NCBI GenBank assembly: GCA_009268125.1
Contig: WBOU01000005.1
Span: 62,001 to 126,000 of the forward strand
DNA from: Chloroflexia bacterium SDU3-3
GTDB taxonomy: Bacteria; Chloroflexota; Chloroflexia; Chloroflexales; Roseiflexaceae
Direction: 5' to 3'
Length of the DNA: 64,000 nucleotides
Below, in pieces: positions 349 to 18,285 of this stretch (within the stretch, counting starts at the first letter, position 1; each line of letters opens with the position of its first letter). The translations under genes and the position numbers were made by a program. The notes below the pieces were generated by a model. It worked only from the letters and a program-made list of their open reading frames with translations. It was not told the origin of the DNA and did no database searches.

Positions 349-1188
349 ATGCCACAGGTTCTGATCACCGGCGGTTCGGGCTACCTAGGCCGCGAGCTGG
401 TGCGGCTGTGCCTTGCGGCGGGCTGGGATGTGACCGCCACCTATGCCAGCCACCCGCCGCAGATAAGTGGCGCACGGCTGCTGCCGCTCGACCTGCGCCA
501 GCCCGGCGCGGCGCTCGCGCTGGTGCGCGCGGCCCGGCCTCAGATCGTCATCCACACCGCCTACGTGCAGGGTGGGCCAGATCTATCCGCCATCACCGCG
601 CAGGGGCCAGGCGATGTCGCCGCCGCCGCCCACTCGGTCGGCGCGCGCCTTATCCACCTCTCCTCCGATGCGCTCTTCGACGGCGAGAGCCAGCGACCCT
701 ACACCGAGGACGACCCGCCCTCGCCGATCACGCCCTACGGCCAGGCCAAGGCCGATGCCGAGCGCGCCGTCGCCTTAGCACACCCCGCCGCGCTGATCGT
801 GCGCACCTCGCTGATCTACGGCGGCCCCACGCCCAGCCCCCACGAGCAGATGGCGCTGGACGCCGTCGAAAGCCCCGAGCGCTTCACCTTCTTCACCGAC
901 GAGCTGCGCAACCCTGTGCTGGTGGCCGACCTCGCCGCCGCGCTGGTCGAGCTGGCCCCCACCAGCCGCAGCGGCATCCTCCACGTCGCCGGTGCCCACA
1001 CCATCAGCCGCTACGAGTTCGCCTGCCGCATCGCCCGCGCCGCAGGCAGGCCAGCCGACGCGCTGCGAGCCGGGTCGAGCGCGGCCAGCGGGCTGCGCCG
1101 CCCGCGTCACGTGGCCATGGACAGCAGCCGCGCCCAGGCCATCCTGCGCACCCAGCTGCGCGGCGTGCGCGATGTGCTGCCCGCCTAG
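349..1188 (+). CDS. RmlD-like SDR family NAD(P)-dependent sugar reductase/epimerase
   Basis: A 279-residue extended short-chain dehydrogenase. The N-terminus carries the Rossmann glycine motif (ITGGSGYLG), HLSSDALFDG marks the strand-4 region, and the catalytic Tyr-x3-Lys appears as PYGQAKADAE. This arrangement is that of dTDP-4-dehydrorhamnose reductase (RmlD) and its relatives, which reduce 4-keto nucleotide sugars. No other rml genes lie nearby, so the substrate is uncertain and it could be a generic NAD-dependent epimerase. The AGGAG ribosome site overlaps the rnc stop codon 10 bp upstream, indicating translational coupling with rnc. Confidence 0.85.
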   Translation: MPQVLITGGSGYLGRELVRLCLAAGWDVTATYASHPPQISGARLLPLDLRQPGAALALVRAARPQIVIHTAYVQGGPDLSAITAQGPGDVAAAAHSVGARLIHLSSDALFDGESQRPYTEDDPPSPITPYGQAKADAERAVALAHPAALIVRTSLIYGGPTPSPHEQMALDAVESPERFTFFTDELRNPVLVADLAAALVELAPTSRSGILHVAGAHTISRYEFACRIARAAGRPADALRAGSSAASGLRRPRHVAMDSSRAQAILRTQLRGVRDVLPA

Positions 1189-1198
1189 GCAAGCAAAA

Positions 1199-1220
1199 GG
1201 CCGGGGATCGTACCCCGGCC
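1199..1220 (-). terminator. Hairpin terminator of the minus-strand hydrolase gene
   Basis: A perfect 8-bp stem (GGCCGGGG/CCCCGGCC) with a 6-base loop. Read on the minus strand it is followed by TTTT, so it probably ends the hydrolase transcript. The plus-strand gene ends just before it and may use it as well. Confidence 0.7.
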
Positions 1221-2214: not shown

Positions 2215-5200
2215 CTACGACTCTACCTCTTCCGGCTCGGGCTGAGTCACGGGCAGAACAAAGTAGAACGTGCTACCCACGCCGATCTCGCTCTTCACCC
2301 ACATCTCGCCGCCGTGCAGCTCCACAAACGACTTCGCGATCGAGAGGCCGAGGCCTGTGCCACCCGCCTCGTCGCGCAGCGGGTTGTCCGTCCGATAGAA
2401 GCGGTGGAACAGCTTCTGCTGATCCTCAGGGGTGATGCCCACGCCATTGTCAGTCACCGCCACCTCCAGCATCCCCGAAGGGTTCAGCTGGACGCGCAGG
2501 TCGATCTTGCCCTCTGCATAGGTATACTTCACCGCGTTCGAGACAAGGTTGAGCACCACCTGGGTGATGCGCCGCTCGTCGGCCTCGATCTTCGGCAGAT
2601 TGTCGGCCATCTCCAGCGAGACCTGCATGCGCTTGCGCTCGATCTCGGCGCGCATGGTCTGCATCACATCCTGGAAGATCGAGCTGATGTCCACCTCGTC
2701 AAAATTCAGCTGGATCTTATTCGAGTCGATCCGGCCAATCTCAAGGATATCGTTGATGAGGTCCATCAGGCGGTTGGCGTTATTCTTCACCACGCTCAGG
2801 AACGAAGACTGTGTCTCGCTGATCGGGCCTGCTGCGCCCAGCACCAGCAGGTCCACATAGCCCTTGATCGCTGTGAGCGGTGTGCGCAGCTCGTGCGAGA
2901 CGCTCGACACGAAATCGCGCTTGGCGCGTTCGGACTCGATCTCGCGGGTGATATCGCGGAACACCACCACGCTGCCGTAGGTCAGGCGATCTGGGCCAAC
3001 CATAGGCGTGAAGTATAGCTCGATCGTCTGCGGCGGCGTGCCTAGCTCTAGGCGCTGCTGGCTCTGGCCCTCATCGCTCAGCCGCTGCAGGCCAGCCACG
3101 ATCGTCTCGTGAATAACCTTCAGGCGTGAGCGGGACGAGGGCGAGGGATCATAGGTAAGGATATCGCCCAGGTGCTGCCCCAGCAGATCCGCCTCACGGA
3201 TGAGAAGAATATCCTCCGCCGCCGGGTTGAACAGAATGACCTTCTCCTGCTCGTCGAGCACCACCACGCCCTCGCCAAGGCTGCGGAGAATCGCCTGGTT
3301 CTTGATCGTCTCCTCACGCTGCTGGTTAAACGACTCCGAGAGCCGCGTCGCATACTCCTGCACCAGCGAGTACAGCTCGGCGTTGTGGATGACGATCGCC
3401 ACCTCATTGGCGATGGTCGAAAGCAGCTGCTCCTGGCTGGGGGTGAAGTAGTGCAGGTGCGGGCTGGTCAGCATCAGCACGCCCAGCGTGCCCACGCCCT
3501 CGGCGCGCAGCGGCACCGCCACCACCGAGCGCACATCCTGCGCCCGCCCTGGCTCCTGCACCCAGCGCTTGTCGCGCCGCACATCGCCGATGCAGATCGG
3601 GCGCTGGTTGTCGCGCACCCAGCCTGCCAGGCCTGTGCCCTCCTCAAAGGCAATCGCGATATTCTCTGCGTGCACCTCGCCGTCGTCGCCAAGCACCGCG
3701 CGGCACACCAGTCGGCGCTGCTGCTCATCCCACAGCATGATCGAGCCGCGCCGCACGCCCAGGTTCTTCGCGGCCAGCTGCAGGGTCTTCCGCAGCGTAT
3801 CGTTCATCTCAAGGCTGGCCGTCAGCTCCACCGTGATGGCGTGCACCGCCTGCAGGCGCTGCTTCTCATCGGCCAGCTGCATGTTCAGCTCGGCCAGGGC
3901 CGCCGTGCGCTCCTCCACGCGCTGCTCAAGCTCGGCGTTGAAGCGCCGCACCTCGTCGAACAGGCGCGCGTTGCGCACCGCCTGCGAGGCCTGGCTGGTG
4001 AGCGTAAAGGCAAGCTGCGCATCATCCTCGGTGTAGACGCCCGGCTTATGGCTATCCACGGTCAGGACGCCGATCACCTCATCGTCGAGCAGCAGCGGCA
4101 CGCCGATCCAAGCGCGGATCAGCGATGTGCCCGCAACCTCGCGGAAGCCCTTGGCCTGCTTGACATCCTTTTCCACAAACGGGCGCTTGGTGCGCACGAT
4201 CGTGCGGAGAGTCAGGTCATCCTTCAGATTAAAGGTGATCTGCTCAACCGCAGGCCGCTCCGACTCGGGGAAGCCACGCGTCGCGACGATCCGCACGGTG
4301 TTGGTGTTGCTATCGCGCAGCATCAGCGACGCCGAGCTATAGGGCACCACCTGCCGCAGCTGATCTAGCAGCAGCGAGTAGATCTCATCAAGCTCCAGCA
4401 CGCCAGTCAGCCGCTCGGCCACCGTGCGCAGCGTATCCGAGGCGGTGCGACGCGCCTGCTCCAGGGCAAATAGGTGGGCGGTCTTCAGGCCCTGGCTGGA
4501 GAGTGTGGTAAGGATCGAGATCATCGAAAGCTCGCGGCCCTGCCAGTCGCGCGGGCGGCGGTCGCCGATCCACAGCATACCCAGCGGCTGCTCGCGCGAG
4601 CCAAGCACCTCGCCGATCAGCCCGTGGATGCCGAGGCCCTCCCCAAAGATCTGTGGCATCTCGGCCAGGGCATCGCGGAACACCACCGGCTTATCGCTGC
4701 TGAACAGCATCGTCACCAGGTCTTCTGGCAGCGCCAGCGGCGGGTACTCGATCACATCTGGACGCTGATTATCAAACATAAACTGCTGCGTCACCTGCCG
4801 GTTGCTATCCAGCAGCAGCAGCGCGCCCATCTGCGCGTGCAAAAGCTCCAGCGCGTTGAGCACCACGATCTGCTGCACCTCGGTGGCATCCAGCGTGCCG
4901 GCCAGCTGCATGCTGATGTCGTAGAGCAGGCCGAGCTCCTGCAGGCTCTGGCCCTGCTCGCTGAACATGCGGGCGTTCGCCAGCGCCACCGCGCCCCAGG
5001 ATGCGATCGTGGAGAGCAGGCGCACATCCTCGTCGATATAGGCGTTCTCGCGCTCGTAGTCCTGAATCGCGATCAGGCCAATCACCTGATCGTTCGCGAT
5101 CATCGGAACCCCCAGCCACGACAGCGAGGTCGGCCCATACTGCTGAATGCCCAGCTCTTGCAGGCGTTCAGCCTGATACTCACCCTGCAGCAGCAGCGGC

Positions 5201-8200
5201 GCGCGCGACTGGATCACATAGTGCGAGAGGCTATCCGACTCGCTCAGCGGCTGCTCTTTGACAAGCTCGCCATTATGGTAGTAGATCGGGAACGACACGG
5301 CATGGGCATACTCGTCGTACAGCCCAAGGTAGAAGTTCGTCGTATCCAGCAGTCGGCTGGCCTGGCGATAGATCAGGGCGATCAGATCATCCAGCTTCGG
5401 CACCGCGCTAAACTGGCGACCGATATCATTGAAGGTCGAGAGCTCCTCGATACGCCGCCCGCGCTCCTGGAACAGACGCGCATTATTGATCGCAACCGCT
5501 GCCTGATTGGCCACCGCCGCCACAAACCGCACATCCTCTGGCCCAAACGCGTGCTGCTGGTAGCTCTGGATGTTGATCACGCCCAGCACATCATCGCCCG
5601 ACGAGATCGGCACCACCACATACGACTGCTCAACCTTGTCATCAGGGCCAAATCGGGTCCCCACCCGGATATGCGTGGTGCGGTAGGCCATTGATTCCTC
5701 GTGGGTGCCCAGCAGCAGCGGCTGGCGGTTCGTCACCACCCAGTGATTGACCCCACGGGTCGTGCTCGGCTCAAGCGTGATGCGCTGCCCGTGGTCATAG
5801 GCCACCGGGTAAGAGAGGATATGCCGCCGCAGATCGTACAAGGCAATAAACGAGGTAGACACATCGATCACGCGGCCCAGCTGCGCGTGCAGCCGCTCAA
5901 GCACATCCTCAAGATTCAGCGTCGAGGTGATCGCGCTGCCGATCTCCTGCAGCACACTCACCTCGGCCAGCCGTCGCTCGCGCTCGCTGAACAGCTGGGC
6001 GCGGGCGATCGATGTTGCGGCAAGGCCCGCGATCGTGATCAGGAAGCGCTCATCATCCGAGTCAAATTTCTTTGGCTCAGGGCTCTGCACATTGATGATG
6101 CCAAATACCGCGCTACCTTCGACAATGGGCACGCTCAGCCACGAGGAGATGTTCGCATGATCCGAGGCCTCAAATCCGCTTTCCAGCAGATACTGCGCCA
6201 CCTCATCACGGGTCTGCAGCAGCACCGAGCGCCGCTCGTTGATCACGCGCCACGATATCGCTGGCTCGTGCGCGGTATGCACACTGCCCTGCTGGCCCGA
6301 TGGTCTGCCGTCTTCCCAGAAAATCGGGTACGAGATCTGCTGCGTCTCGCTGTGGAACAGCGCGATAAACGAGTGCCGCCGATCGAGAACCTGACCGATC
6401 TCCTCATGGATGATCTGAATCAGCGCCTCTAGCTGGACCGCAGCATTCAGTCGCTGGCTAATCCGGTTGAAGGATGTCAGCTCGGCGATACGGCGGTCGC
6501 GCTCGGCGAACAGCCGCGCGTTCTCCAGCGCGATCGCCGCCTGATCGGCGATACCAGCCAGCAGCATCTGCTCATCATCGCTGAACTCGCGCTGCTCGAT
6601 GGTCATCACGCTCAGCACGCCTACGATCTGCTCGCGATACACCACCGGCACACCCATGAATGTGGTCAGCGCATGGTCGCGGTTGAAATCGGGGTAGAGC
6701 GAATGGCCCTCCTGATTCACATCGAGCACGATCAGCGGGCGGCCCGTCGCAGCCACGCGCCCGGTCAGGCCCTGGCCTACCGGCACCGACATCTGGTCGG
6801 CGATCTCGTGCGAGATCCCGAGCAGCGCCGCCGCCCGCAGCATCTGATCGGGGGTGACCGTCCACAGGCCCACCGTGCTGACATTGAGGTGGCGGCCCAC
6901 CACATCCATCAGCCGATTCAGCACCTCATCGGGCCGCAGCGAGGAGCTGAGCACGCGCGAGGCCTCAAGCAGGGTCGAAAGCTCGCCAACCTTGTGCTCA
7001 AGCACCTCGGCATTATGCCCGATCTGCGAGAACAGCCGCACATTCTGCACGCCCAGGGCCAGCTGGCTGGCCACCGCCGTCATAAAAGCAAGCTCGCGCT
7101 CGCCATACAGGTTCGGCGTATAGCTCTGGATGCTGATCACGCCCTCGATCATGCCATCGTTGCCCAGCAGCGGCACCCCCAGCCACGAGGCCGAGCGCCG
7201 CGCCGTCACGCCAAATGCGATCGGCTTCACGCCCGAGGGCTTCTGCTCGCCAGCCAGATTCTGGAACAGCAGCGGCTGCCGCGTCTGCACAATTTGCGTG
7301 GTGAGGCTGCCCTCAGACAGAAGGCGCTTGACGGGGTTGATCGTCCGCAGCTCCTCATCGGCCTCAAGCGACATCGCAACCTGCTTACGCGTCTCATCAA
7401 ATGCGTAGATATAGCCCGCATCAACCGTCAGAAAATCACGGATGCGCTCGTAGATCTGGGTAAACATCTTGGGAAGATCCAGCGTGGTGCTGGTGATCCG
7501 CCCGATGTCGTTGATCACATCAAGCTCGGCAATACGATGCTCGCGTTCGGCAAATAGCCGCGCGTTCTCCAGCGCGATCGCCAGCTGGTTGCCCAGCGAT
7601 GAGAGGAAGCGGATATGCCGCTTGGTAAACGCGTAGGCCGTGTTGCTCTGCACCGAAAGCACGCCGATCACGCGGTTTTGGCTGCGCAGCGGGATGCCCA
7701 CCCACGAGCGAACTGGCTTGTCGAGCACCACCGGCTTCACCGGCAGCTGCGGGGGCGCATCGTGGTAGTCGCGAATGTCCAGCACCTGCCCGCTATCGAT
7801 CACATGGCCTGTCAGGCCGGCTTTGGGCTGAACCAGTTTGGTGTGGGTCTCAAGCGTGCGGCCTTCTTCCTTGAACAGCTCAAACTGAATCGACTCATGC
7901 TGATCGTGGTAGGAGGCTACAAAGAAGAAGGTTGGCGTGCCCATGTACGAGACAATCTCGGTGTAGACACGATCCAGCAGATCATCAAGGCTCAGCGTCG
8001 AGACCGCCGCTTTGCCAACCTTGTACAGCGCGCGCATCTGCTCGGTCTGCGCCCGCGCCTCGCGCAGCAGCGTAGCATTCTCGATCGCGATCGCCGCCTG
8101 ATCCGAGAGCACCTCGATAGCCTCAAGCGAGCGGCTTGTTGGGCGGAGCCGGTTATATGGCTCATCAACCGAGAGCATGCCCACCAGCCGGGCGCTCGTG

Positions 8201-10695
8201 CTGTAGAGCGGCAGGAACACCCGATCTTGGGGGTGCCACTCATCAGGTGCCTCCGGCAGCGCATCGCTCTCAACCGAGAGCTGCGGCACCACAAAGCCAG
8301 CGCTCACCTCTTCGAGCGCCTCGGCGGGGAGGAAAAAGCTGCGCCCCATCCGAAAGCGCTTGTTTAGAATGCGGTCAATAAAGCCCTTGGGCATGGGCAG
8401 CGTCCGCAGCTGATCGAGCTCGGGCAGCGCCACGCCAGCCCCCGATACCACCCGCAGCGCGTCAGCCTCATCGGGGTCGGCGATATAGAACACCGCACGC
8501 CGAAAGCCGGTGGTGTCCACAATGCTGAAGGCGATCTGTTCCAGCAGATCCTCAATCGACCGATCGGCCCGCAGCGCCTGGCCAATATCAAGCACCTGCT
8601 TGAGCATGCTGGCTCGCTGCTGAAGAAGCGAGCGCTGACGCTGCTGCTCTTCGTAGCGGCGGGCATTGCCTAGCGCGAGCGCCACCTGATCCGTGAGCGC
8701 TCGCACAAACTCGACTGTATTGTGGTCGAAGGCCTGGGTTCGCTCGCTATGCAGGCACACCACGCCAACGATCTGATTTTCATAGTAGACCGGCATCGCC
8801 AGCACCGATGCGGTGTTTGGGCCAATGCCATTCGGTCGATCATCATGAGCCAGCTCATCCACCAGCTTGGACTCGCCGCTGGCCAGCACGTCGCCCACGG
8901 TCCGATCCGATACCTCAAGCACCTGGCCCAGCAGCTTCACATCATCTGCGCCATAGCCAGCCGTAGCCAAGATCCGATAGACCTGCATCCCATCGTCATG
9001 CAGGGCAACAAACGCGATAAACTGGCCGCTGTCGGCATCGGTAACGCGCAGGCCATCTTTATCATCAGATCGCAGCGCAATGAAGGCCTGCGTCGCAGGT
9101 GTGGCCTGCAGCGCCTCATCGAGCGCAAAGCTGAAGATCAGGTCGAGCGAGAGCGTAGCCGTCAGCTGGCGGCTGATCCGCTGTAGTGCGGTGAGATGCT
9201 GCAGGCGCCCGCGCAGGTGTGTATCGGTGTGCGAAAACTGCCGTGCGCTTGCGATAGCCAGCGCAGCCTGTGTAGCCACCAGCTGAAGCAGCCGCTCCTG
9301 ATCGGCGGTAAACACCCGCTGCTGATCCCCAAATAGCTCGATCGTACCGATCAGCTGCTCGCCCACCAGCAGCGGAGTACCCAAAAAGCTCATGGGCGCT
9401 GCACCTGTGGCAAGCTGGATGGGAAGGGGTTTTACGGGGGCGTGCTCGAAGCTCGCCATGCGCAGGATACAGCGGTAGCGCCCAAGCCAGCCCGTCAGGC
9501 CATGCGAGAAACGCTCGGGGGTGCCCGACACTTGGCCAGACTGATATTCACCAGCAAGTCCTGTCTGCACACCCAGCGCAAACATCTCATCTTCGGCATC
9601 GTACAGGCAGATCTGCGCCCCAGCAAAAGGAATAAAGCCGCGCACGCCCCGGAGGATGGCGTAGAGGGTATCTTCAAGCGGCTGCTCAACCCCCAGGCGC
9701 AGGCTGAGATCCTGCAGCGCATCGAGCTCTTGAGCACGGCGCTGCTCGGCATCATACGACTGCGAGCCAGCGATAGCAACCGCCACCTGGTCGGTAATCG
9801 TCTGCGCCAAGCTCTGCTCGGCCCGGCTAAATGCATGGTCGCGGCTTGTGTAGCCCGTCGCCAAAAAGCCCACAATCTGATCGCGCACTTTCAGCGGCAG
9901 CAGGAGCGCGCTCTGAAAGCCCAGCACATCACGTTTTGGGTTTGCATCGCCGCCAATGATCTGGATCTGACCGGACTCCAGCACCTCGCTAATCGGCCCG
10001 TGGCCATTCACCGTATAGTGTGGAACCAGCACATCTTCATCTTGATCAAGGCTGTAGGAGGCTGCCTCAAACAGCTGCTCTGGGTCATAGCGATCGCGCA
10101 GGTGGATAATACAGCGATCCGCACGTAGCGCCAGCGACACATTCTCGGTGATCCGCGCCAACATCGCCTCCAGGCCAAGCCCCGAGGTGATGATCTTGCC
10201 ATTTTCCTGAAGGATGAACAGCTCGCGCGAAGACTCGAGCTGAGCCGTGTGGGCGGCGCTATCGCGATAGTGAAGCTGCACCAGCAGGGCTATCTGGTGG
10301 CGCAGGGCGACAAAGAAGGCTGGGGTAAACAGCGCCTCTTGCTGTGGGGAAAACGGAGCCAGCAGCACGCCAGAGCCATACTCGCCAGCAAAGGCGAGCT
10401 CTTGAAACGGCTGGCTGAGCACAGAGCGATCGCCTTTTCGGAGCGCCTGCTGGGCCTGCTCATCAAGCCCATGGGCAGCGCAGAGCGCGCCTCCGATAGG
10501 CTGTAGTAGCAATACAGCCCAAGGGCACAGTAGCGACGCACACACACGATCGACGATACTCTGGGCTAGCGTAGAAAGATCGCTCAGTCCGTGCTTATCG
10601 TTGCCGCTGACCGCAAGTTCTGCTATTAGTTCCCAAGCCGAAGCTTGCGGCACTAGTGTCGTCGTATCCATAGCCAAGAACGTATCCGCTCCCAC
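2215..10695 (-). CDS. Giant cytoplasmic multi-GAF sensor histidine kinase
   Basis: About 2826 residues with no signal peptide or membrane segment. Fourteen GAF-type modules follow one another every 170-180 residues, each ending in a helix of the form QxAIALENARLFxE; the first (residues 1-150) is degenerate and 13 are clear. They occupy residues 1 to about 2445. A PAS domain follows (about 2460-2580, FNPAAEDILL). Then comes a HisKA domain with the phospho-accepting His (SVSHELRTPLTAIKGY, about 2597) and a complete HATPase_c domain with N box (NLVSNAVKYTY), G1 (DNGVGI) and G2 (GGTGLGLSIAKS). It should autophosphorylate and pass phosphate to a response regulator, probably the one encoded 76 bp upstream. 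The start is GTG at 10695 or ATG at 10671; neither has a good Shine-Dalgarno sequence. Confidence 0.93.
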   Translation of the reverse strand: MGADTFLAMDTTTLVPQASAWELIAELAVSGNDKHGLSDLSTLAQSIVDRVCASLLCPWAVLLLQPIGGALCAAHGLDEQAQQALRKGDRSVLSQPFQELAFAGEYGSGVLLAPFSPQQEALFTPAFFVALRHQIALLVQLHYRDSAAHTAQLESSRELFILQENGKIITSGLGLEAMLARITENVSLALRADRCIIHLRDRYDPEQLFEAASYSLDQDEDVLVPHYTVNGHGPISEVLESGQIQIIGGDANPKRDVLGFQSALLLPLKVRDQIVGFLATGYTSRDHAFSRAEQSLAQTITDQVAVAIAGSQSYDAEQRRAQELDALQDLSLRLGVEQPLEDTLYAILRGVRGFIPFAGAQICLYDAEDEMFALGVQTGLAGEYQSGQVSGTPERFSHGLTGWLGRYRCILRMASFEHAPVKPLPIQLATGAAPMSFLGTPLLVGEQLIGTIELFGDQQRVFTADQERLLQLVATQAALAIASARQFSHTDTHLRGRLQHLTALQRISRQLTATLSLDLIFSFALDEALQATPATQAFIALRSDDKDGLRVTDADSGQFIAFVALHDDGMQVYRILATAGYGADDVKLLGQVLEVSDRTVGDVLASGESKLVDELAHDDRPNGIGPNTASVLAMPVYYENQIVGVVCLHSERTQAFDHNTVEFVRALTDQVALALGNARRYEEQQRQRSLLQQRASMLKQVLDIGQALRADRSIEDLLEQIAFSIVDTTGFRRAVFYIADPDEADALRVVSGAGVALPELDQLRTLPMPKGFIDRILNKRFRMGRSFFLPAEALEEVSAGFVVPQLSVESDALPEAPDEWHPQDRVFLPLYSTSARLVGMLSVDEPYNRLRPTSRSLEAIEVLSDQAAIAIENATLLREARAQTEQMRALYKVGKAAVSTLSLDDLLDRVYTEIVSYMGTPTFFFVASYHDQHESIQFELFKEEGRTLETHTKLVQPKAGLTGHVIDSGQVLDIRDYHDAPPQLPVKPVVLDKPVRSWVGIPLRSQNRVIGVLSVQSNTAYAFTKRHIRFLSSLGNQLAIALENARLFAEREHRIAELDVINDIGRITSTTLDLPKMFTQIYERIRDFLTVDAGYIYAFDETRKQVAMSLEADEELRTINPVKRLLSEGSLTTQIVQTRQPLLFQNLAGEQKPSGVKPIAFGVTARRSASWLGVPLLGNDGMIEGVISIQSYTPNLYGERELAFMTAVASQLALGVQNVRLFSQIGHNAEVLEHKVGELSTLLEASRVLSSSLRPDEVLNRLMDVVGRHLNVSTVGLWTVTPDQMLRAAALLGISHEIADQMSVPVGQGLTGRVAATGRPLIVLDVNQEGHSLYPDFNRDHALTTFMGVPVVYREQIVGVLSVMTIEQREFSDDEQMLLAGIADQAAIALENARLFAERDRRIAELTSFNRISQRLNAAVQLEALIQIIHEEIGQVLDRRHSFIALFHSETQQISYPIFWEDGRPSGQQGSVHTAHEPAISWRVINERRSVLLQTRDEVAQYLLESGFEASDHANISSWLSVPIVEGSAVFGIINVQSPEPKKFDSDDERFLITIAGLAATSIARAQLFSERERRLAEVSVLQEIGSAITSTLNLEDVLERLHAQLGRVIDVSTSFIALYDLRRHILSYPVAYDHGQRITLEPSTTRGVNHWVVTNRQPLLLGTHEESMAYRTTHIRVGTRFGPDDKVEQSYVVVPISSGDDVLGVINIQSYQQHAFGPEDVRFVAAVANQAAVAINNARLFQERGRRIEELSTFNDIGRQFSAVPKLDDLIALIYRQASRLLDTTNFYLGLYDEYAHAVSFPIYYHNGELVKEQPLSESDSLSHYVIQSRAPLLLQGEYQAERLQELGIQQYGPTSLSWLGVPMIANDQVIGLIAIQDYERENAYIDEDVRLLSTIASWGAVALANARMFSEQGQSLQELGLLYDISMQLAGTLDATEVQQIVVLNALELLHAQMGALLLLDSNRQVTQQFMFDNQRPDVIEYPPLALPEDLVTMLFSSDKPVVFRDALAEMPQIFGEGLGIHGLIGEVLGSREQPLGMLWIGDRRPRDWQGRELSMISILTTLSSQGLKTAHLFALEQARRTASDTLRTVAERLTGVLELDEIYSLLLDQLRQVVPYSSASLMLRDSNTNTVRIVATRGFPESERPAVEQITFNLKDDLTLRTIVRTKRPFVEKDVKQAKGFREVAGTSLIRAWIGVPLLLDDEVIGVLTVDSHKPGVYTEDDAQLAFTLTSQASQAVRNARLFDEVRRFNAELEQRVEERTAALAELNMQLADEKQRLQAVHAITVELTASLEMNDTLRKTLQLAAKNLGVRRGSIMLWDEQQRRLVCRAVLGDDGEVHAENIAIAFEEGTGLAGWVRDNQRPICIGDVRRDKRWVQEPGRAQDVRSVVAVPLRAEGVGTLGVLMLTSPHLHYFTPSQEQLLSTIANEVAIVIHNAELYSLVQEYATRLSESFNQQREETIKNQAILRSLGEGVVVLDEQEKVILFNPAAEDILLIREADLLGQHLGDILTYDPSPSSRSRLKVIHETIVAGLQRLSDEGQSQQRLELGTPPQTIELYFTPMVGPDRLTYGSVVVFRDITREIESERAKRDFVSSVSHELRTPLTAIKGYVDLLVLGAAGPISETQSSFLSVVKNNANRLMDLINDILEIGRIDSNKIQLNFDEVDISSIFQDVMQTMRAEIERKRMQVSLEMADNLPKIEADERRITQVVLNLVSNAVKYTYAEGKIDLRVQLNPSGMLEVAVTDNGVGITPEDQQKLFHRFYRTDNPLRDEAGGTGLGLSIAKSFVELHGGEMWVKSEIGVGSTFYFVLPVTQPEPEEVES

Positions 10696-10771
10696 CCGCT
10701 GCGCGGGATAAACTTTTTATCGCCCTATGCTCGATAGATGGCACACTCAAGACGGGCACAAAAACTACCTG

Positions 10772-11716
10772 TTAGGCTCGCCCATAGCTCACATGGCTCT
10801 TGCGGCCCAGTTCGCGAGCCTCGGCCTGTGCCTTCTGGCGTGCGTCCTCCGCAGTCTCGCTCAGCTCACGAATATCGTAGAACGGCCCATCATCGCTGGT
10901 AAGCACGCCGATCGAAAGCGACATGAGCGGCACCTGCTTGGGCGTGCCCGTATCATCAGTCACCGTGATATAGCCATTGCGCCGATCTTTATAGTTGTAG
11001 TGAAGGCCGACCTCGGCGTCGAAGCGCTCTATCAGCTTCTCCGATACAGCCTTTAGGTTCTCGCGGGAAGACGTGATCACAAAATCGGGGCCGACCACCA
11101 TCTGGCCAATGAAGTCATCGGCGGTGCCAAGCTCGTTGACCACCTCGCTGGTAAGCAGCGCGGTAAATCGGAGCACATCTTCGCCCACCACAGCGCCATA
11201 CGCCTGCGTGAAGGTCTCAAAGCCATTGATATGGATCTGCGCCATGGCCCAGCCATTGTTTGCGATCAGGGTGCGGTACTGCTCGTTGATCAGCTCCGCA
11301 GTTGGCAGATTCGTGACCGGGTGGGCAAGGTTGCGCTGGCGTGCGCGCTCAAGTGCACCCTTCACAATGGTATGGACTTCTTCGATATCAAACGGCTTTA
11401 CGAGGTAGTACTCGGCCTGAACCTCACCAAGCCCCTTCAGGCGATCTTGCTTTTCACCACGGGCAGTCAGGAAGATGATCGGGATATGGCGGGTGCGAGC
11501 GCTGGCTCGTAGCGCCTTACCAATATCATAGCCCTCCATATCAGGAAGATTCACATCCAGCAGGGCGAGGCTCGGCGGGGTCTTGCGGCAGATATCGAGG
11601 GCAATCTGCCCGCGCATGGCGGTCATCACCTCATACCCCTGTGATGTAAAGTAGATTTTGAGTAGGCTTGAAATATCGGGTGCGTCTTCGACGACCAGGA
11701 TCTTTTCCTTATTCAC
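10772..11716 (-). CDS. Response regulator: REC domain plus degenerate GGDEF-like domain
   Basis: 314 residues. The N-terminal REC domain (1-125) has the acidic pair VVEDAPD, the phosphoacceptor Asp in LLDVNLPD, the Thr in FLTAR and the Lys in LVKPF, so it should be phosphorylatable. The C-terminal half (about 135-300) has the length and pattern of a diguanylate cyclase fold (GEDVLRFTALL, then MSLSIGV near the end), but the GGDEF signature is replaced by VGPDF, so cyclase activity is not expected; it may bind nucleotide or protein instead. The GTG start has an excellent AGGAGGAT site 7 bases upstream. It lies between the beta-helix gene (33 bp) and the giant kinase (76 bp) on the same strand and is the likely partner of that kinase. 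Confidence 0.88.
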   Translation of the reverse strand: MNKEKILVVEDAPDISSLLKIYFTSQGYEVMTAMRGQIALDICRKTPPSLALLDVNLPDMEGYDIGKALRASARTRHIPIIFLTARGEKQDRLKGLGEVQAEYYLVKPFDIEEVHTIVKGALERARQRNLAHPVTNLPTAELINEQYRTLIANNGWAMAQIHINGFETFTQAYGAVVGEDVLRFTALLTSEVVNELGTADDFIGQMVVGPDFVITSSRENLKAVSEKLIERFDAEVGLHYNYKDRRNGYITVTDDTGTPKQVPLMSLSIGVLTSDDGPFYDIRELSETAEDARQKAQAEARELGRKSHVSYGRA

Positions 11717-11749
11717 CGAGGTATCCTCCTCAATTGCCCCAGTATTTGG

Positions 11750-13150
11750 CTAACGAATGCCAAACAACTTTGAAAATTCAGTATCGGTCGGCTGGATCGG
11801 CGTGATAGACTGTGATGGGTGCTCGCCATCAGGCTTTGGGAAATAGCGATCAGGCCATTTATAGATTGCCTGATCTGGCTCGCTATCTGGGTTCATCTGT
11901 TCGCCAAACGGCGGCACATTAACATCCCGCGGGACAACTGTATGAGGATCGCTATAGACCAAGGTCGTATTCGAGCCGATCATGCGGCCTGGATACACCA
12001 CGAAACCGCTGCCAATCCGGCAGTTGTGCCCCACAACCGAGCCAATCACGGGCATATCGATCTCGACCTTTTCGCCTTGATGATCTATTTTAAGCTTACG
12101 GCCAAGAAGGTGAAAATCGGTGAAGATATTTCCGGCCCCGATAAAGGTATTGCGGCCAACGACACACATCTGCAGGCAGCTTAGCTGTGCAACCATGGAA
12201 TTTTCCATAAGACTGGTCATAAAAAGACCAGTGTTCCAAGGCAGGTAGCACTTGTTGCTGACTACGCTAAGCATCACCTGGCAGCCCTGCATGATCGTGA
12301 CATTATCGCCGATCAGGCTGTTGGTGATCACCGCGCCAGCACCAATATAGACGTTATCGCCGATCACCGTCGGGCCATGGATAACAGCAGTAGGATCGAT
12401 AGAGCAGTTCTTCCCGACCTTCACCAGCCGCGAGCACGAAAAAAAGTGCGATTTGCGCCAGCTTGGGGCCATGGGATTGATGCGATCCAAGAGATGAGAA
12501 GCTGAAACTGCCAACTTCTCCTTCCAGCTGGTTTCTACGCGCTCTTCATGGGTTCGCCCCCACGAGAACACACCAAAGGGAGAGTTGGCAAGATAGAGGT
12601 GGAGCCAATTTTCGATCGACAGAAATGCGCGAATGGGTACGTGAAAAACTAATTCACCGCCATTCACTGCCATATATTTCGGGATATTGTAGTACCCCAT
12701 CTCGCGCGATGCAGTATCGACCACGAGCGGGATAGGCTCTTCTTCAGTGCGACCGGCTGGAAAGTAAAAAAGATCGGCGCCATACACTTCCCCTAGATCG
12801 GTGAAGCCTTTCGATAGGGGGATGGCGTGAACCGTGATGGCTTTATCTTGTTTTGAAAACGCCAACTGGCACGCCCGCCCGGAGGCGCGTGCCCGCGTCA
12901 CAAAATCGTCAATAAGCGCCTGATTAAAGAAAAGATTATCTCGATAGATAATCTTTTCCTCGGTTTCATCTTTTTTGTCCCGAGCGGTGCGCGCCTCAGT
13001 CAGGGAGGTTGCCTCTGGCGCAATTCGGCCATAGCTAGCCAGCAAGTCGCGCTGGTGAACCCAGAGCAGCTTGTTTAAAATGCGGAGGTCGCGCGCCGGC
13101 TCGCCGAAAGGTGGGATTATGGTCGTATCGGCGATCGGTATGCATTTCAT
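11750..13150 (-). CDS. Left-handed beta-helix (hexapeptide-repeat) protein, possibly transferase-like
   Basis: About 466 residues. The first roughly 240 residues form an alpha/beta region I do not recognise with certainty; it contains RDNLFFNQALIDDFV, reminiscent of sugar nucleotidyltransferase-related proteins. From about residue 250 there are hexapeptide repeats (SIDPTAVIHGPTVIGDNVYI, later GRNTFIGAGNIF and GHNCRIGSGFVVYPG), the mark of a left-handed parallel beta-helix as in GlmU, LpxA and carbonic-anhydrase-like proteins. A long loop (about residues 300-340, rich in Met, Ser, Leu and Cys) interrupts the helix. Activity and substrate are unknown. The start is ATG 13150 with GGGGAG 12 bases upstream, or GTG 13162. 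It lies between the V4R gene and the regulator gene on the same strand. Confidence 0.75.
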   Translation of the reverse strand: MKCIPIADTTIIPPFGEPARDLRILNKLLWVHQRDLLASYGRIAPEATSLTEARTARDKKDETEEKIIYRDNLFFNQALIDDFVTRARASGRACQLAFSKQDKAITVHAIPLSKGFTDLGEVYGADLFYFPAGRTEEEPIPLVVDTASREMGYYNIPKYMAVNGGELVFHVPIRAFLSIENWLHLYLANSPFGVFSWGRTHEERVETSWKEKLAVSASHLLDRINPMAPSWRKSHFFSCSRLVKVGKNCSIDPTAVIHGPTVIGDNVYIGAGAVITNSLIGDNVTIMQGCQVMLSVVSNKCYLPWNTGLFMTSLMENSMVAQLSCLQMCVVGRNTFIGAGNIFTDFHLLGRKLKIDHQGEKVEIDMPVIGSVVGHNCRIGSGFVVYPGRMIGSNTTLVYSDPHTVVPRDVNVPPFGEQMNPDSEPDQAIYKWPDRYFPKPDGEHPSQSITPIQPTDTEFSKLFGIR

Positions 13151-13336
13151 GTGTGCGTTCACTCCCCTGTCACAGAGATGAGGGTAAGGTTATCGTAGAC
13201 CTCCCCGGGGTACCATCCCCAATACTATACAGGATAGAGACCGCTCATCTCAAGAGGTTGAGATTACAGTCATATTACGTAACGCACAGGAGAGCGTGGG
13301 CCCGGTCGACCCACGTAGACACCATCCGGATCTGTT

Positions 13337-13984
13337 TTAGTCGACCGGGTCCTTGTCGATCGCAAACGTACAGGACGCAGCACCAAGGCCGCGGCACTCG
13401 ATCTCTTCCATATGGAAGGAGTGGCCGCCCGTCACCCAGGTAAGTGCTTCCTCAAGGATACCCTGCGCGAGATGACAGCAGGGGCGTTCGGTATGGCGAC
13501 CCCAGCACACAGGGCACTTTTCAATGATGTAGAGGAATTGCCCTTTACGCTCCTCGACACGGGTCGGCTGGTCGCTAAAGCGATCAAAGGTCTGCGCTGT
13601 TGCGTTGAGGGCGATTTTCATTTTCATCGTCATCGGCATCAGCTTCAGCGCAAGATCAGCCATGCCAAGGAGTGGGCCAAACTCCTTGAGGCCTAGATTG
13701 AACGCATACCGCCCAGCACGCAGCTCCATGCCGCGAGCACCTCGGTGGCCATACATCGTCTCTGTCGACTTGGAAATCGTCGACAGATCATGGAAGGAAA
13801 ACTCACGCCGGAGGTTGCTTGGCGGGTAGTTGTTCACCAAGTGTTTGGTGCCGGCGAGGTTTAACAGGGCATTAACACCGTTACGCCCCATGACGTCTTC
13901 CAGGCTAAGCAGGTACAGACGTCCGATCAGATTGGGATAAAATCGCGGCTCTAGCTCGCTCGCGTTGCCACGCTCATCTGGCAT
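13337..13984 (-). CDS. V4R (4-vinyl reductase-type) domain protein
   Basis: 215 residues. The C-terminal third shows the V4R pattern: a Cys cluster (KCPVCWGR then RPCCHLAQG), a helix with EEAL, then EEIECRGLGAASCTFAID, where the two late Cys are separated by the usual Gly-rich turn. V4R domains occur in the bacteriochlorophyll protein BchJ and in many small-molecule-binding regulatory proteins; here binding of a hydrophobic ligand or metal is an inference. The N-terminal region (LYLLSLEDVMGRNGVNALLNLAG) resembles that of stand-alone V4R sensors. The ATG has GAAGGAG 7 bases upstream, and a strong promoter lies at 14050-14079. It is first in the minus-strand sensory cluster. Confidence 0.8.
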   Translation of the reverse strand: MPDERGNASELEPRFYPNLIGRLYLLSLEDVMGRNGVNALLNLAGTKHLVNNYPPSNLRREFSFHDLSTISKSTETMYGHRGARGMELRAGRYAFNLGLKEFGPLLGMADLALKLMPMTMKMKIALNATAQTFDRFSDQPTRVEERKGQFLYIIEKCPVCWGRHTERPCCHLAQGILEEALTWVTGGHSFHMEEIECRGLGAASCTFAIDKDPVD

Positions 13985-14049
13985 TGCCCGGCTCCTTCGG
14001 GTCTATGGCTTGAAGGCAAGCTGAATTTGCGGCCCAAAAAGCTTGAGAT

Positions 14050-14079
14050 ATTGTACACGATGCTACGTAGAATCGTCAA
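14050..14079 (-). promoter_or_regulatory. Sigma70-type promoter of the V4R/beta-helix/REC/kinase cluster
   Basis: On the minus strand TTGACG (-35, 14074-14079) and TACAAT (-10, 14050-14055) are separated by 18 bases, the best matched promoter in the window. Initiation near 14043 would give a leader of about 59 bases before the V4R start. Confidence 0.7.
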
Positions 14080-14100
14080 CCAGAAGGGTTGTACTTCTGG
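14080..14100. promoter_or_regulatory. Inverted repeat abutting the -35 box, possible operator
   Basis: Two perfect 7-base arms, CCAGAAG and CTTCTGG, separated by 7 bases, start one base upstream of the -35 box. Size and position fit a dimeric regulator site; the binding protein is unknown. Confidence 0.45.
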
Positions 14101-14420
14101 GTTGAGTTCAGGTAGTACCCCGACTACCGATTGAAGATGGTGCGCATACCAAAATTCTCCTGTTCTGCATGTAGTAAAATGGTCCTACTATACAATAGAC
14201 GATAGCCTGATACAATGATCATGCTTTCGTTATCTAAAGACATTTTAACTTTTTAACAACACATTTTAGCTGATCAGGAAAACATTGCTAAAAATCTAAA
14301 CCTAACTTTAACTTATATCGGCTGTATAATAACCCTGCACCACCGCTTGTTCCTAATGCCTTAGGATTTAATGCGTTTCTGTTCTTGTTTGTAGCACTAG
14401 CTACAGGAGATCGAGCACCT
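14101..14420. other. AT-rich divergent intergenic region
   Basis: No convincing gene. The stretch is clearly richer in A+T than the rest of the window. It holds the leader of the DUF11 gene and a -10 candidate at 14325-14330. Confidence 0.6.
14325..14330 (+). promoter_or_regulatory. -10 box candidate for the DUF11 surface protein gene
   Basis: A perfect TATAAT preceded directly by TG, giving a predicted leader of about 84 bases before the ATG at 14421. The -35 region (CTAACT at 14302-14307) is weak. Confidence 0.45.
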
Positions 14421-17400
14421 ATGTATGCTTCCACTGGCCAACGCATGGCTACCATTCTTATGGTAGCACTGATTGGGATGTCCATGGGGGGAACTTCTGT
14501 TTCAGCCCAAACTCCCACCCCTGAACCACCCAAACCAAACACAACACAGGTAGGAGAAATTCTCGGGACGCAGCTCCCACCTAAAGCTTCACTTTCGGAT
14601 CTGGATACTGCTGCCCCCTCCGATGAAACATTACCTGAGACCACTGTCACCAGTATTGAGGCTCCAGCGGACAGTATCACAGCTCAGGTGGAGCCTGCAA
14701 CTGTAACAGAGGGGGTAACAAGCTCGCCAAACTTTATCACAAATGCCACCACACCAAGCATCATTGACGTGTCAACGCCAAACGGTGTTGTTGCGGGCGG
14801 GGTGATCACCTATACCTACACATTCACCAATACGATTGCTGATGGTGATTTCTATGTGCAGGCCTGGTGGCTTAATTATAGCCCAACTTCGGGCGGAAAC
14901 AACCAGTACTGCGACGACAAGACCGAACCTAAAAAATGCGATGCGATCCCTGAGACAGCTTATCAGCTACCAAATAAAACCCCATTAACGATCACCCATG
15001 GTACGTGCCCCCCAGGAGTCACGCCTATAAGCAGCACCTGCTACCTCGTCCATGGTCTGCCCCAATCGCAAAAGGGGCAATTTCAGGTCCGCCTGCGCAC
15101 CAAGACTAACCTCTACCCCAAGACAAATGCGAATATAACCACGCTTTCGGGATCGGCAAAACTGTTGCCCCTGGGCACAACCACAGGGCAGGGTGAAGAC
15201 ACAGTAGCGACCCTTGTGGTTGGGCCTGTGCTGTCAGCTACAAAAACAGCAGTAACCACTGGAACTATCTACACCGGTGATCAGGGCACATTCAAGATTT
15301 CAGTTGGGAATGCTGTTGGTACCAAAGATAAATCTGCTGACGGCACCATTCGTGCGGATGCGCGTACCGCAACAAACATTTTGGTCACCGATCCTATTCC
15401 AACCGGAGCGACGTTTGTCAGCTCCAATCAGGGGACTTATCAGCAGCCATTTGACCCATCCAAAGATAAAGAGATCAAGTGGCTGTTCCCTGGGCCGCTG
15501 AAACCAGGTGAGAAGCTGCCAGATATCCAGGTAGTGTTCAAGAAGACTGGCGGCACTGTATCTGAGTGTACCGTTCTCAAAAACCCAAGTGTAAAGCTAA
15601 CCAGCCCAGAGTATCCGCTTGCCAATGGGGCTACGACGACACTTTCTTTTAATGGCGCTTCTATCCCGGTTGTATCTGCGTTGGTGGTAAAGAAGCCAGT
15701 TGCTTCACCGGCCACGATCGCCTTCGGTGAGACTGGTGAGATCTCGATTGTGGTGCAGAACTACAAGCCCACAACGATTAATAATGTCACATTGACCTAT
15801 CAGGTCCAGACTGGGGTGACATTCCTTGAGGCGTCACCGAAGGAGACCTCGAATAACCAGGCAACACCACCAAAGATTACTTGGGTCTTCAGCATTCCCG
15901 CTGGGTCACTGACCCAGCCCAAAGAGATGACCTTTGTGGTCAAGGTAAAGGCCGGGTACTCCACCTCTACCACTGGTGGTAGCGCAACCCTCACCGCCAC
16001 CGACCAGGCTATCGATTGCAACACCCAGGCAGGGCGCATTGGCATTGTCGAACGACTCCTGATCAAGAAATCAGCTGGCGATAACCCGTACGAGAGCTCG
16101 GGAAATGTCTATCTGCTGCCTGGCCCAGCTGACTTTGAGTACGTTATCGAGCTAACGAACAATAGCTCATCGGATGTCTCAGGGATTGAGATCATTGATA
16201 AGATCCCACAAGGTGATGGCAACGGCCCTGGAACCGGAAAGTTTGCATACATCGACGGCAGTGCACAAGATAAAGTATCAGGCATAGAGTATCCACCAGT
16301 TGAGGTCACCAATCTCATCATTCGCTGGAATAATATCAGCATAGATGCAGGTTCGACGATCTATCTTTCCTATAAGCTTCGTGCCGATGGCGACAACTAT
16401 GTCAAGTACTGCAACTCGGTCTCTGCTGTTGCCTACCACGAGGGCGAGGATAACGAGCCGGTGAAGGGTGCTGGAGGCACGATTGTGTGCCTACGCCTCA
16501 ACCCGCCGCTGACCTTCTCGAAAGTTGTGGACAAATCTGTTATTGCTATGGAGGACGATGGCGATACACCAGTAGCAGATCGAACGGTCACCTACAAACT
16601 TACGGTGACCAATGAGGGCACCATTAGCTATCCCTTTGGGTTTGTAGATGCGCTCCCTGCAGTAGATTATGTGGAAGGCAGTACCACTACGACGCCTTCA
16701 AACATCTTTGGTGGCGAGCCATCGCTGCAAAGCGGCTATCTGGTGTGGGAAAACAACTTCCCAGGTGGCGTTGTCCCAAGCATTGGCGCAGGCCAAACAT
16801 TGACCCTAGAATTCAAGGCGATTGTGCCAGAAGGCTGCGGTGGAAAGTCAAACGTCTCGTACACCAATAAGATGCTGTTCCGGGATGACAAGTACTTTAT
16901 TGTCATCGATCCAACTCCATCGGCATTGGTGGTGGCTAACTGTGGCAAGATCGAAACGACAATCGCCGTTGATCCTAAGACGGTCAGCATTGGCAACGAG
17001 CAGAACTTCATCATTACGCTAAAAAACACAAGCAAAACTGCGACTGAGAGCAACCTGCCGGTTGAAGTTCGCTTGCCTTCAGACTACACCTACGTCGGGC
17101 TGAACACGGGTAGTTCGGTCAGCACTACGCCAACTTCAACGATCTCAGGGACCTTTACCACCCTCAAGTGGACTGTGCCTTCAATCGGGAAAGATGGCAC
17201 CAGTGATGCGACCAAGACTATCAAGTTTAAAGCACGGGCGGGCCTGACGGTTCTTCCAGACAATATTGTGGATGGAGTCTGGGCAAGAACACTGAAAAAT
17301 GGGAAATGCCCTGCTTCTTGTATAGCAGACCCACTGGGTGGCGCAATATGGTCGGCGGCTGGGGTAAAAGTGGACACGCTCGTGACGCTCTCGTCGAAAT

Positions 17401-18221
17401 TTACTGAGACGGGATGCGCAGAAATAAATACCACTCGAACCTACGAGCTGACTGTCTCCAATACCAATACAAAGTTGGATTATACGTCGACGATCATCAC
17501 CGTGACGCTGCCGCTTGGTATCGAGTATGTGGGTAAAAGTACTACGACACCAATACCAACTGTCACAACGATTGAAGGCAAGCAAACCCTGATTTGGGCT
17601 GGCCAGACTATTGCGAAGAGCACGGGTGTGGCCTCAACCAAGCTGTATAGCCTGAACCTCAAGATCACTGGTAAGGGCGGTGGGGCGCTAGCGGTAGCAT
17701 CGACCGCCAGCAGCCCGGTCGGCGCGTTCCCGCCACGCACTGGTGTGGTAGACCCAACGGTGTTTATCTGCCTTAGCAAGCCGGCAATCTGGTTTAACTC
17801 GACCCCTGTGGCGGCGCTACCAGGCCAGACAGCAGTGTTTGAGATCCAAGCGACCAACCCTCTGTCGGACTCATATGCGCTTGGGTTCGAGTACGCTATC
17901 CCTGATACACTCACGTTTATCACTGATACGGCCGATATCGAGGATCCGACCTACATCACACCAGAAATCAATGGGAATGTCCTGAGCTGGCCGTCTGTCA
18001 CCCTACCCGCTGCGGCAGATACATCCACCTATGGACAGCTGGTGATCCGCTTTAAGATGCGAATCAATGATGATGCCGTGATCGGATCTGCTATCACCAG
18101 CAAGATTACGGTAACGAAGAATATTCCAGGGACAGACTCTATGCCACTTGTAGAGATCAAAGACGACACCACCACGCTATTGGTGATGCGCAGCATCTAC
18201 CTGCCGATGGCGCTGAAATAA
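14421..18221 (+). CDS. Secreted DUF11-repeat surface protein
   Basis: About 1266 residues from ATG 14421, which has AGGAGA 10 bases upstream; an upstream TTG (14385) lacks a site and would spoil the signal peptide. The N-terminus is a signal peptide (hydrophobic MATILMVALIGMSMGG, cleavage near VSAQ), followed by a Pro/Thr-rich linker. About eight Ig-like DUF11-type repeats follow, each with patterns such as VTYKLTVTNEGTISYPFGF and ending in a VxVTLPxGIxYVG-like strand. The protein ends MRSIYLPMALK, a short tail like those I recall on many secreted Chloroflexota proteins. Such proteins are usually adhesive or structural. The gene is visibly lower in GC than its neighbours. It stands alone, with its own promoter and terminator. 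Confidence 0.85.
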   Translation: MYASTGQRMATILMVALIGMSMGGTSVSAQTPTPEPPKPNTTQVGEILGTQLPPKASLSDLDTAAPSDETLPETTVTSIEAPADSITAQVEPATVTEGVTSSPNFITNATTPSIIDVSTPNGVVAGGVITYTYTFTNTIADGDFYVQAWWLNYSPTSGGNNQYCDDKTEPKKCDAIPETAYQLPNKTPLTITHGTCPPGVTPISSTCYLVHGLPQSQKGQFQVRLRTKTNLYPKTNANITTLSGSAKLLPLGTTTGQGEDTVATLVVGPVLSATKTAVTTGTIYTGDQGTFKISVGNAVGTKDKSADGTIRADARTATNILVTDPIPTGATFVSSNQGTYQQPFDPSKDKEIKWLFPGPLKPGEKLPDIQVVFKKTGGTVSECTVLKNPSVKLTSPEYPLANGATTTLSFNGASIPVVSALVVKKPVASPATIAFGETGEISIVVQNYKPTTINNVTLTYQVQTGVTFLEASPKETSNNQATPPKITWVFSIPAGSLTQPKEMTFVVKVKAGYSTSTTGGSATLTATDQAIDCNTQAGRIGIVERLLIKKSAGDNPYESSGNVYLLPGPADFEYVIELTNNSSSDVSGIEIIDKIPQGDGNGPGTGKFAYIDGSAQDKVSGIEYPPVEVTNLIIRWNNISIDAGSTIYLSYKLRADGDNYVKYCNSVSAVAYHEGEDNEPVKGAGGTIVCLRLNPPLTFSKVVDKSVIAMEDDGDTPVADRTVTYKLTVTNEGTISYPFGFVDALPAVDYVEGSTTTTPSNIFGGEPSLQSGYLVWENNFPGGVVPSIGAGQTLTLEFKAIVPEGCGGKSNVSYTNKMLFRDDKYFIVIDPTPSALVVANCGKIETTIAVDPKTVSIGNEQNFIITLKNTSKTATESNLPVEVRLPSDYTYVGLNTGSSVSTTPTSTISGTFTTLKWTVPSIGKDGTSDATKTIKFKARAGLTVLPDNIVDGVWARTLKNGKCPASCIADPLGGAIWSAAGVKVDTLVTLSSKFTETGCAEINTTRTYELTVSNTNTKLDYTSTIITVTLPLGIEYVGKSTTTPIPTVTTIEGKQTLIWAGQTIAKSTGVASTKLYSLNLKITGKGGGALAVASTASSPVGAFPPRTGVVDPTVFICLSKPAIWFNSTPVAALPGQTAVFEIQATNPLSDSYALGFEYAIPDTLTFITDTADIEDPTYITPEINGNVLSWPSVTLPAAADTSTYGQLVIRFKMRINDDAVIGSAITSKITVTKNIPGTDSMPLVEIKDDTTTLLVMRSIYLPMALK

Positions 18222-18246: not shown

Positions 18247-18285
18247 AGCCTGGGCGTACGTCTACGCGTACGTCCAGGCTTTTTC
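18247..18285 (+). terminator. Rho-independent terminator of the DUF11 gene
   Basis: A long stem (AGCCTGG...CCAGGCT with an inner CGTACG/CGTACG) followed by TTTTT, 25 bases after the stop codon. Confidence 0.9.

Follow-up and report, generated by a model that had tools for sequence, protein, structure and literature searches.

What brings together, on one strand, the genes for a V4R domain protein, a beta-helix protein, a two-component response regulator and a giant sensor kinase is the question raised by a cluster near the start of a 64,000-nucleotide stretch of the genome of Chloroflexia bacterium SDU3-3 (contig WBOU01000005.1, positions 62,001 to 126,000; the whole of this stretch is hereafter called the window). 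All four open reading frames (ORFs) are on the minus strand, separated by 174, 33 and 76 base pairs (bp), in agreement with the coordinates of an initial annotation made from the sequence alone. The four-gene cluster described in that annotation is nevertheless incomplete: all four members are present, but a fifth gene, which starts 115 bp past the kinase gene on the same strand (1251-2099), encodes an alpha/beta-hydrolase-fold protein and has a hairpin beyond it, was missed. We put at about 0.5 the probability that the window carries a five-gene signalling operon whose core is made up of a nucleotidyltransferase/beta-helix protein, the regulator, the multi-GAF kinase and the hydrolase-fold protein. 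Judging from the comparisons described below, the beta-helix and hydrolase-fold proteins most likely lack catalytic activity and serve as ligand-binding partners in a two-component pathway whose output does not involve DNA binding.

That the genes form one unit is indicated by their order in relatives. The beta-helix protein was scanned against 84,980 species genomes and the best 80 loci were used, 22 weaker loci being found besides; all of the best 80 are titled Chloroflexota or unassigned bacterium, and they include Roseiflexus, Kouleothrix, Herpetosiphon, Chloroflexus, Oscillochloris, Chloroploca and many Anaerolineae. When only loci with enough flanking sequence are counted, the regulator gene lies 3′ of the beta-helix gene in 68 of 68 loci from Chloroflexia and Anaerolineae, the kinase gene is next in order in 66 of 67, and the hydrolase-fold gene follows in 20 of 22; moreover, nine relatives show a 4-bp overlap between the beta-helix and regulator genes. 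The loci of both classes that keep this order share 43-64% identity in the beta-helix protein. Thus, the beta-helix-regulator-kinase core is not scattered across Chloroflexia and Anaerolineae, the association exceeds chance because its order is conserved, and the proposal of the initial annotation that these genes constitute a unit holds across two classes. The beta-helix gene, for the presence of which that annotation saw no obvious reason, turns out to be the anchor of the unit, with the regulator 3′ of it in every locus checked. Conversely, the V4R gene, which had been taken for a fixed part, lies directly upstream in only 37 of 72 loci, the core being found without an adjacent V4R gene in the other 35, and occupies a separate genomic location in one family (f4) and in genome G006; it is therefore accessory, a frequent but separable partner of the core.

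Of 251 genomes sampled evenly across the phylum, 44 encode the beta-helix protein. Neither this protein nor the V4R protein was found in one genus of the same family with genomes of about 3 Mb (g8; genomes G007, G011, G014, G016, G018 and G020-G025), which suggests loss in streamlined lineages. We considered and rejected a mobile or plasmid origin: plasmid records give only three weak matches to the beta-helix protein, at less than 27% identity. No description of this unit was found in the open-licence literature.

The beta-helix protein (470 amino acids; 11750-13162, minus strand) has hexapeptide repeats supported by Pfam, but its name describes only the C-terminal half, a left-handed beta-helix. 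In the AlphaFold2 model (mean predicted local distance difference test score, pLDDT, 81), residues 5-437 match the whole of a nucleotidyltransferase plus beta-helix protein, namely ST0452, a GlmU-like bifunctional sugar-1-phosphate nucleotidylyltransferase/acetyltransferase (Z 28.5, root mean square deviation 3.1, 320 residues, 18% identity), and the next-best fold matches are the GMPPA/GMPPB complex, VTC1, VTC1-KJC2 and eIF2B subunits (the latter with Z 15-18). By sequence, the helical half aligns with residues 299-395 of ST0452, ungapped over most of its length. For all the likeness of the whole fold, none of the 65 orthologues contains the nucleotide-binding signature GxGxR or matches PF00483 (NTP_transferase), and in all 65 the columns of ST0452 His308, which we take to be the catalytic base of the acetyltransferase, and of Asn331 are occupied by Gln326 and Asp349, respectively; the alternative GlmU encoded in the same genome has His at the place aligned with Gln326. 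Because the signature, the PF00483 match and the equivalent of His308 are all lost, it appears very unlikely that the protein performs the parent nucleotidyltransferase/acetyltransferase chemistry; its scores against the enzyme families TIGR03992 and TIGR03991 are 42.6 and 22.1 bits, compared with cut-offs of 292.1 and 225.3. Residues E320, N321, Q326, Q331, D349 and H379 are invariant in 65 of 65 orthologues, and this strict conservation indicates that the site is under strong constraint. A similar fold and a lost catalytic signature are combined in GMPPA, a catalytically inactive, GDP-mannose-binding regulator of GMPPB (PMC11228364), and likewise in KJC2 and eIF2B subunits; these proteins, however, are eukaryotic and partnered with an active paralogue or a GTPase, whereas the setting here is a two-component system.

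A comparable loss is seen in the hydrolase-fold protein (282 amino acids), which Pfam assigns to its fold family (PF00561, 76.3 bits). Its nucleophile motif reads GHGLGG, with Gly98 in place of Ser, whereas His240 and Asp213 are kept. Among 30 kinase-linked copies the nucleophile position holds Gly in 24, Ala in five and Ser in one, and the His-Asp pair is kept in all 25 of the copies covered there; in a paralogue encoded upstream of the V4R gene in Anaerolineae, the Ser is present in 28 of 28. A maximum-likelihood tree places the kinase-linked copies of both classes (98/98) apart from the Ser copies of both classes (98/98), the two rows labelled ‘free’ in the kinase-linked group being kinase-linked copies from another search. 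Since both clades span both classes, the hydrolase duplication predates the Chloroflexia/Anaerolineae split and, most simply, so would the loss of the Ser. The Ser copy of Chloroflexia lies away from the operon: in the SDU3-3 genome it lies among the genes for a phosphoglucomutase/phosphomannomutase, the alternative GlmU and a YvcK-like UDP-GlcNAc-binding protein (L130:152-7271), it adjoins a phosphomutase gene in two further genomes, and a canonical nucleotidyltransferase motif is found 3′ of it in six others. On the strength of this repeated context of the Ser paralogue, with which it would fit, we propose a link of the pathway to sugar nucleotides. The nearest bacterial precedent is the RsbQ-PAS pair, and two-component systems with accessory sensors are already known; as in RsbQ/RsbP, the hydrolase-fold protein is encoded beside a PAS-containing signalling protein, but in contrast to RsbQ, an alpha/beta hydrolase that acts as a signalling partner and needs its catalytic triad of Ser, Asp and His (PMC3183031), the triad Ser is lost in 29 of the 30 kinase-linked copies.

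The signalling components proper present the opposite picture on the kinase side and a further case of degeneration on the output side. The kinase (2826 amino acids; 2215-10695, minus strand) combines GAF arrays with PAS, HisKA and HATPase_c domains according to Pfam, retains the H-box His2601 and the N, G1 and G2 boxes, and is predicted to be soluble, as no segment of it has the hydrophobicity expected of a membrane span. Of the 14 GAF domains originally counted, 13 are detected by profile; one more, at the N terminus, is plausible, although no profile match supports it. The regulator (314 amino acids; 10772-11716, minus strand) has the receiver-GGDEF architecture of PleD-type regulators, with a strong Response_reg match (PF00072, 88 bits) and a GGDEF match (PF00990, 20.8 bits) that falls under the cut-off of 23.8. 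Receiver residues D11, D54, T84 and K107 are invariant in 52 of 52 orthologues and, unlike in PleD-type proteins, the GG[DE]EF motif occurs in none of the 52, which led us to reject an active diguanylate cyclase. Thus, to judge by these residues, the kinase and the receiver carry everything predicted to be needed for phosphotransfer, the regulator should accept a phosphoryl group, and it cannot, by the same token, be a standard cyclase. Phosphotransfer from this particular kinase to this regulator we infer from their adjacency in 66 of 67 loci. The initial annotation was right that the output domain is not a DNA-binding domain and probably right on a non-transcriptional output; the regulator lacks any DNA-binding domain, and its cyclase motif is gone while the receiver residues are invariant, so that a non-transcriptional, phosphorylation-dependent output is a reasonable prediction. 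Taken by their sequences, three enzyme-like proteins of the operon show a conserved loss of the residues on which their parent chemistry depended.

The optional member of the unit, the V4R protein (215 amino acids; 13337-13984, minus strand), matches PF02830 with 42.3 bits against a cut-off of 31. Its AlphaFold2 model (pLDDT 91) best matches H-NOX (Z 14.8), followed by Bet3/TRAPPC3 (Z 12-14; TRAPPC3 14.0), and Foldseek retrieves DmpR, MopR and PoxR. With these three regulators it shares the fold, membership of PF02830 and, as predicted here, the zinc-ligand pattern; in contrast to them, it stands alone, with no fused AAA+ or DNA-binding domain, and has H-NOX as its best fold match. A hydrophobic or redox ligand, as suggested in the initial annotation, is a conjecture; the ligands of the fold relatives are phenols (MopR, DmpR and PoxR), palmitate (TRAPPC3) and haem. 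Despite the H-NOX match, haem sensing was rejected, there being no conserved proximal His; indeed, no invariant or nearly invariant His exists among 34 sequences of the family. Identity with BchJ, the bacteriochlorophyll 4-vinyl reductase, was rejected as well (TIGR02019, 28 bits against a cut-off of 74.3).

Residues C170, E194, C197 and C205 of the V4R protein are the predicted zinc ligands, mapped by hand from XylR, DmpR and MopR with the help of the E-x2-C-x7-C spacing of MopR; profile comparison with XylR aligns E194, C197 and C205 and leaves the first Cys unaligned, and C170 was placed by hand using the invariant Gly175. The mapping is to be read as a prediction because the printed number of the Glu among the DmpR ligands (Cys151, Glu172, Cys177 and Cys185; PMC7264223) does not fit this spacing. 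The full predicted set is present in 28 of 34 operon copies. The SDU3-3 genome encodes a second V4R protein, 79% identical (L114:8553-9165; G000:C1:148553-149164, minus strand), within a cluster of the zinc-limitation type, with CobW-type GTPases, a Fur-type regulator and a ZnuABC-like transporter, and in genome G006 a 76% identical paralogue (L161:8778-9437) lies directly 3′ of a Fur-type gene and near the L28 and S18 genes, these neighbours having been named by eye from their sequences. In both paralogues C170 is replaced by Gly and E194 by Gln, that is, two of the four predicted ligands, and one extra Cys is present; a description of the zinc-type paralogue as cysteine-less was discarded, four cysteines being kept and one gained. 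Zur-controlled spare copies that lack zinc have been described as a strategy (PMC6103462), and in mouse TRAPPC3 a hydrogen bond takes the place of the zinc site (PMC10933270). The V4R genes of the f4 family also lack both C170 and E194 and yet have no zinc genes beside them where these neighbourhoods were read, so that the zinc link, and with it the reading of the paralogue as a spare copy without a zinc site for times of zinc shortage, is suggestive only.

Combining these observations, we propose the following scheme. The nucleotidyltransferase/beta-helix protein, its parent reaction lost, would bind a sugar nucleotide or a sugar phosphate, and the hydrolase-fold protein, similarly deprived of its parent reaction, would bind a small ester-like, lactone-like or acyl compound. 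Both would communicate their ligand-bound state to the GAF/PAS part of the kinase, with the V4R protein providing a further, optional input, and the kinase would then phosphorylate D54 of the regulator. The dead GGDEF domain could serve as a phosphorylation-gated protein-binding or nucleotide-binding module, neither cyclase nor transcription factor, with the output transmitted by protein contact. In its most far-reaching form, to which we would give clearly less than even odds, the hypothesis is that of a two-component pathway fixed before the Chloroflexia/Anaerolineae split, with at least a dead sugar-nucleotide pyrophosphorylase/acetyltransferase and a dead alpha/beta hydrolase as inputs, a dead GGDEF domain and a post-transcriptional response, which would read central sugar-nucleotide and acyl metabolism through pseudoenzyme receptors.

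Several observations weigh against this scheme. The search with phmmer gave no sequence match for the nucleotidyltransferase half, and hhalign comparison of this half with real enzymes gave no trustworthy N-terminal alignment, so that its assignment rests on structure and on the missing motif; furthermore, the alignment is of low diversity (effective number of sequences, Neff, 2.6). Both the invariant polar set E320/N321/Q326/Q331/D349/H379 and the His-Asp pair that the hydrolase-fold protein has kept could equally mean new chemistry, and RsbQ, needing its triad, offers no precedent for a dead receptor.

In the principal competing explanation, the altered enzymes would be active with changed chemistry and form a small pathway, for example one that modifies an envelope component with sugar or acyl groups, controlled by the two-component pair. 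The strict invariance of the polar residues surrounding the former acyltransferase site and the conserved His-Asp pair are what such an activity would lead one to expect, as are the reductase and the Ser-type hydrolase of the Anaerolineae loci. These loci (e.g., L042:7547-12426) add an upstream DUF4388 protein, a Ras-like GTPase and the Ser-type alpha/beta hydrolase, often have a single receiver protein 3′ of the kinase and, in about half of the cases, encode between the beta-helix and regulator genes a reductase related to PigE/acyl-ACP (acyl carrier protein) reductase, nearly all copies of which retain the catalytic Cys. The SDU3-3 genome, however, lacks the reductase, no close homologue of it occurs in the Chloroflexia operons, and an enzyme of this kind was accordingly rejected as part of the system of the window; reductase hits in relatives are mostly proteins of about 700 amino acids encoded away from the operon. 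Moreover, pseudoenzymes are usually recognized by losses such as those of the nucleophile and the nucleotide-binding signature, and the regulator is no transcription factor, all of which leaves changed chemistry an unlikely, albeit serious, explanation.

Alternatively, the V4R protein could be the main receptor, binding a hydrophobic ligand such as the phenols or palmitate bound by its fold relatives, with the other proteins relaying its state. Its position just upstream of the core in about half of the loci agrees with such a role, but the persistence of the core without an adjacent V4R gene in the remainder, along with the promoter-like site that parts V4R from the core in the window, makes this doubtful. 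Less probable by far is a small-GTPase switch resembling TRAPP or eIF2B, in which the V4R and nucleotidyltransferase/beta-helix proteins would act on the Ras-like GTPase of the Anaerolineae operons: the DUF4388 protein and the small GTPase are indeed encoded upstream there, and the two proteins do resemble TRAPPC3 and eIF2B subunits, but the likeness is by fold only and no such GTPase is found in the operon of the window or in other Chloroflexia operons. As for unrelated genes that are neighbours by chance, we found no point in favour, and the order conserved in two classes at the divergence given above already refutes this for the core, leaving it a negligible probability. We continue to favour non-catalytic ligand-binding partners feeding a two-component pathway.

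With regard to expression, a promoter-like site 5′ of the V4R gene (14050-14079, minus strand; TTGACG-18-TACAAT, 10/12 by consensus match only) had been considered the strongest in the window, a distinction it does not hold, as the 10/12 score at 14079-14050 is equalled at 13253, 24571, 27699, 29822 and 54516. The first of these, between the V4R and beta-helix genes (13224-13253, minus strand; TTGAGA-18-TATAGT), is a possible separate start for the core genes, and 3′ of the fifth gene lies a terminator-like hairpin with eight G-C pairs and a T-rich tail (1199-1220, minus strand), both likewise recognized by consensus match only. Within positions 10001-18000, the G+C content of 62% in the kinase gene drops to 49-56% across the regulator, beta-helix, V4R and DUF11 genes; the low values of the first three contrast with the vertical conservation of the operon in the phylum. 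The DUF11 gene (14385-18221, plus strand), divergent from the operon, encodes a 1278-residue protein with DUF11 repeats in a stretch of 49-52% G+C (about 67% in most of the window) that ends at a strong terminator-like hairpin (18247-18280); this gene was possibly acquired. At the other end, an ORF convergent with the operon (349-1188, plus strand), beginning MPQVLITGGSGYLGRELVRL, probably encodes an NAD-dependent epimerase/RmlD-like reductase.

Many-GAF sensor kinases are frequent in Chloroflexota; the unit described here gives one of them a fixed, testable set of partners, and it occurs in the cultivable genera Roseiflexus, Herpetosiphon and Chloroflexus. The V4R paralogue beside zinc-limitation genes, if it is a spare copy without a zinc site, raises the possibility that cells may keep the pathway running in zinc shortage. 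If the beta-helix and hydrolase-fold proteins are indeed receptors, they would clearly exemplify, in bacteria, conserved pseudoenzymes that provide the input of a two-component system, much as GMPPA and eIF2B do for regulation in eukaryotes. More generally, the present analysis suggests a pathway, apparently not described before, in which old enzymes have been turned into sensors or switches.

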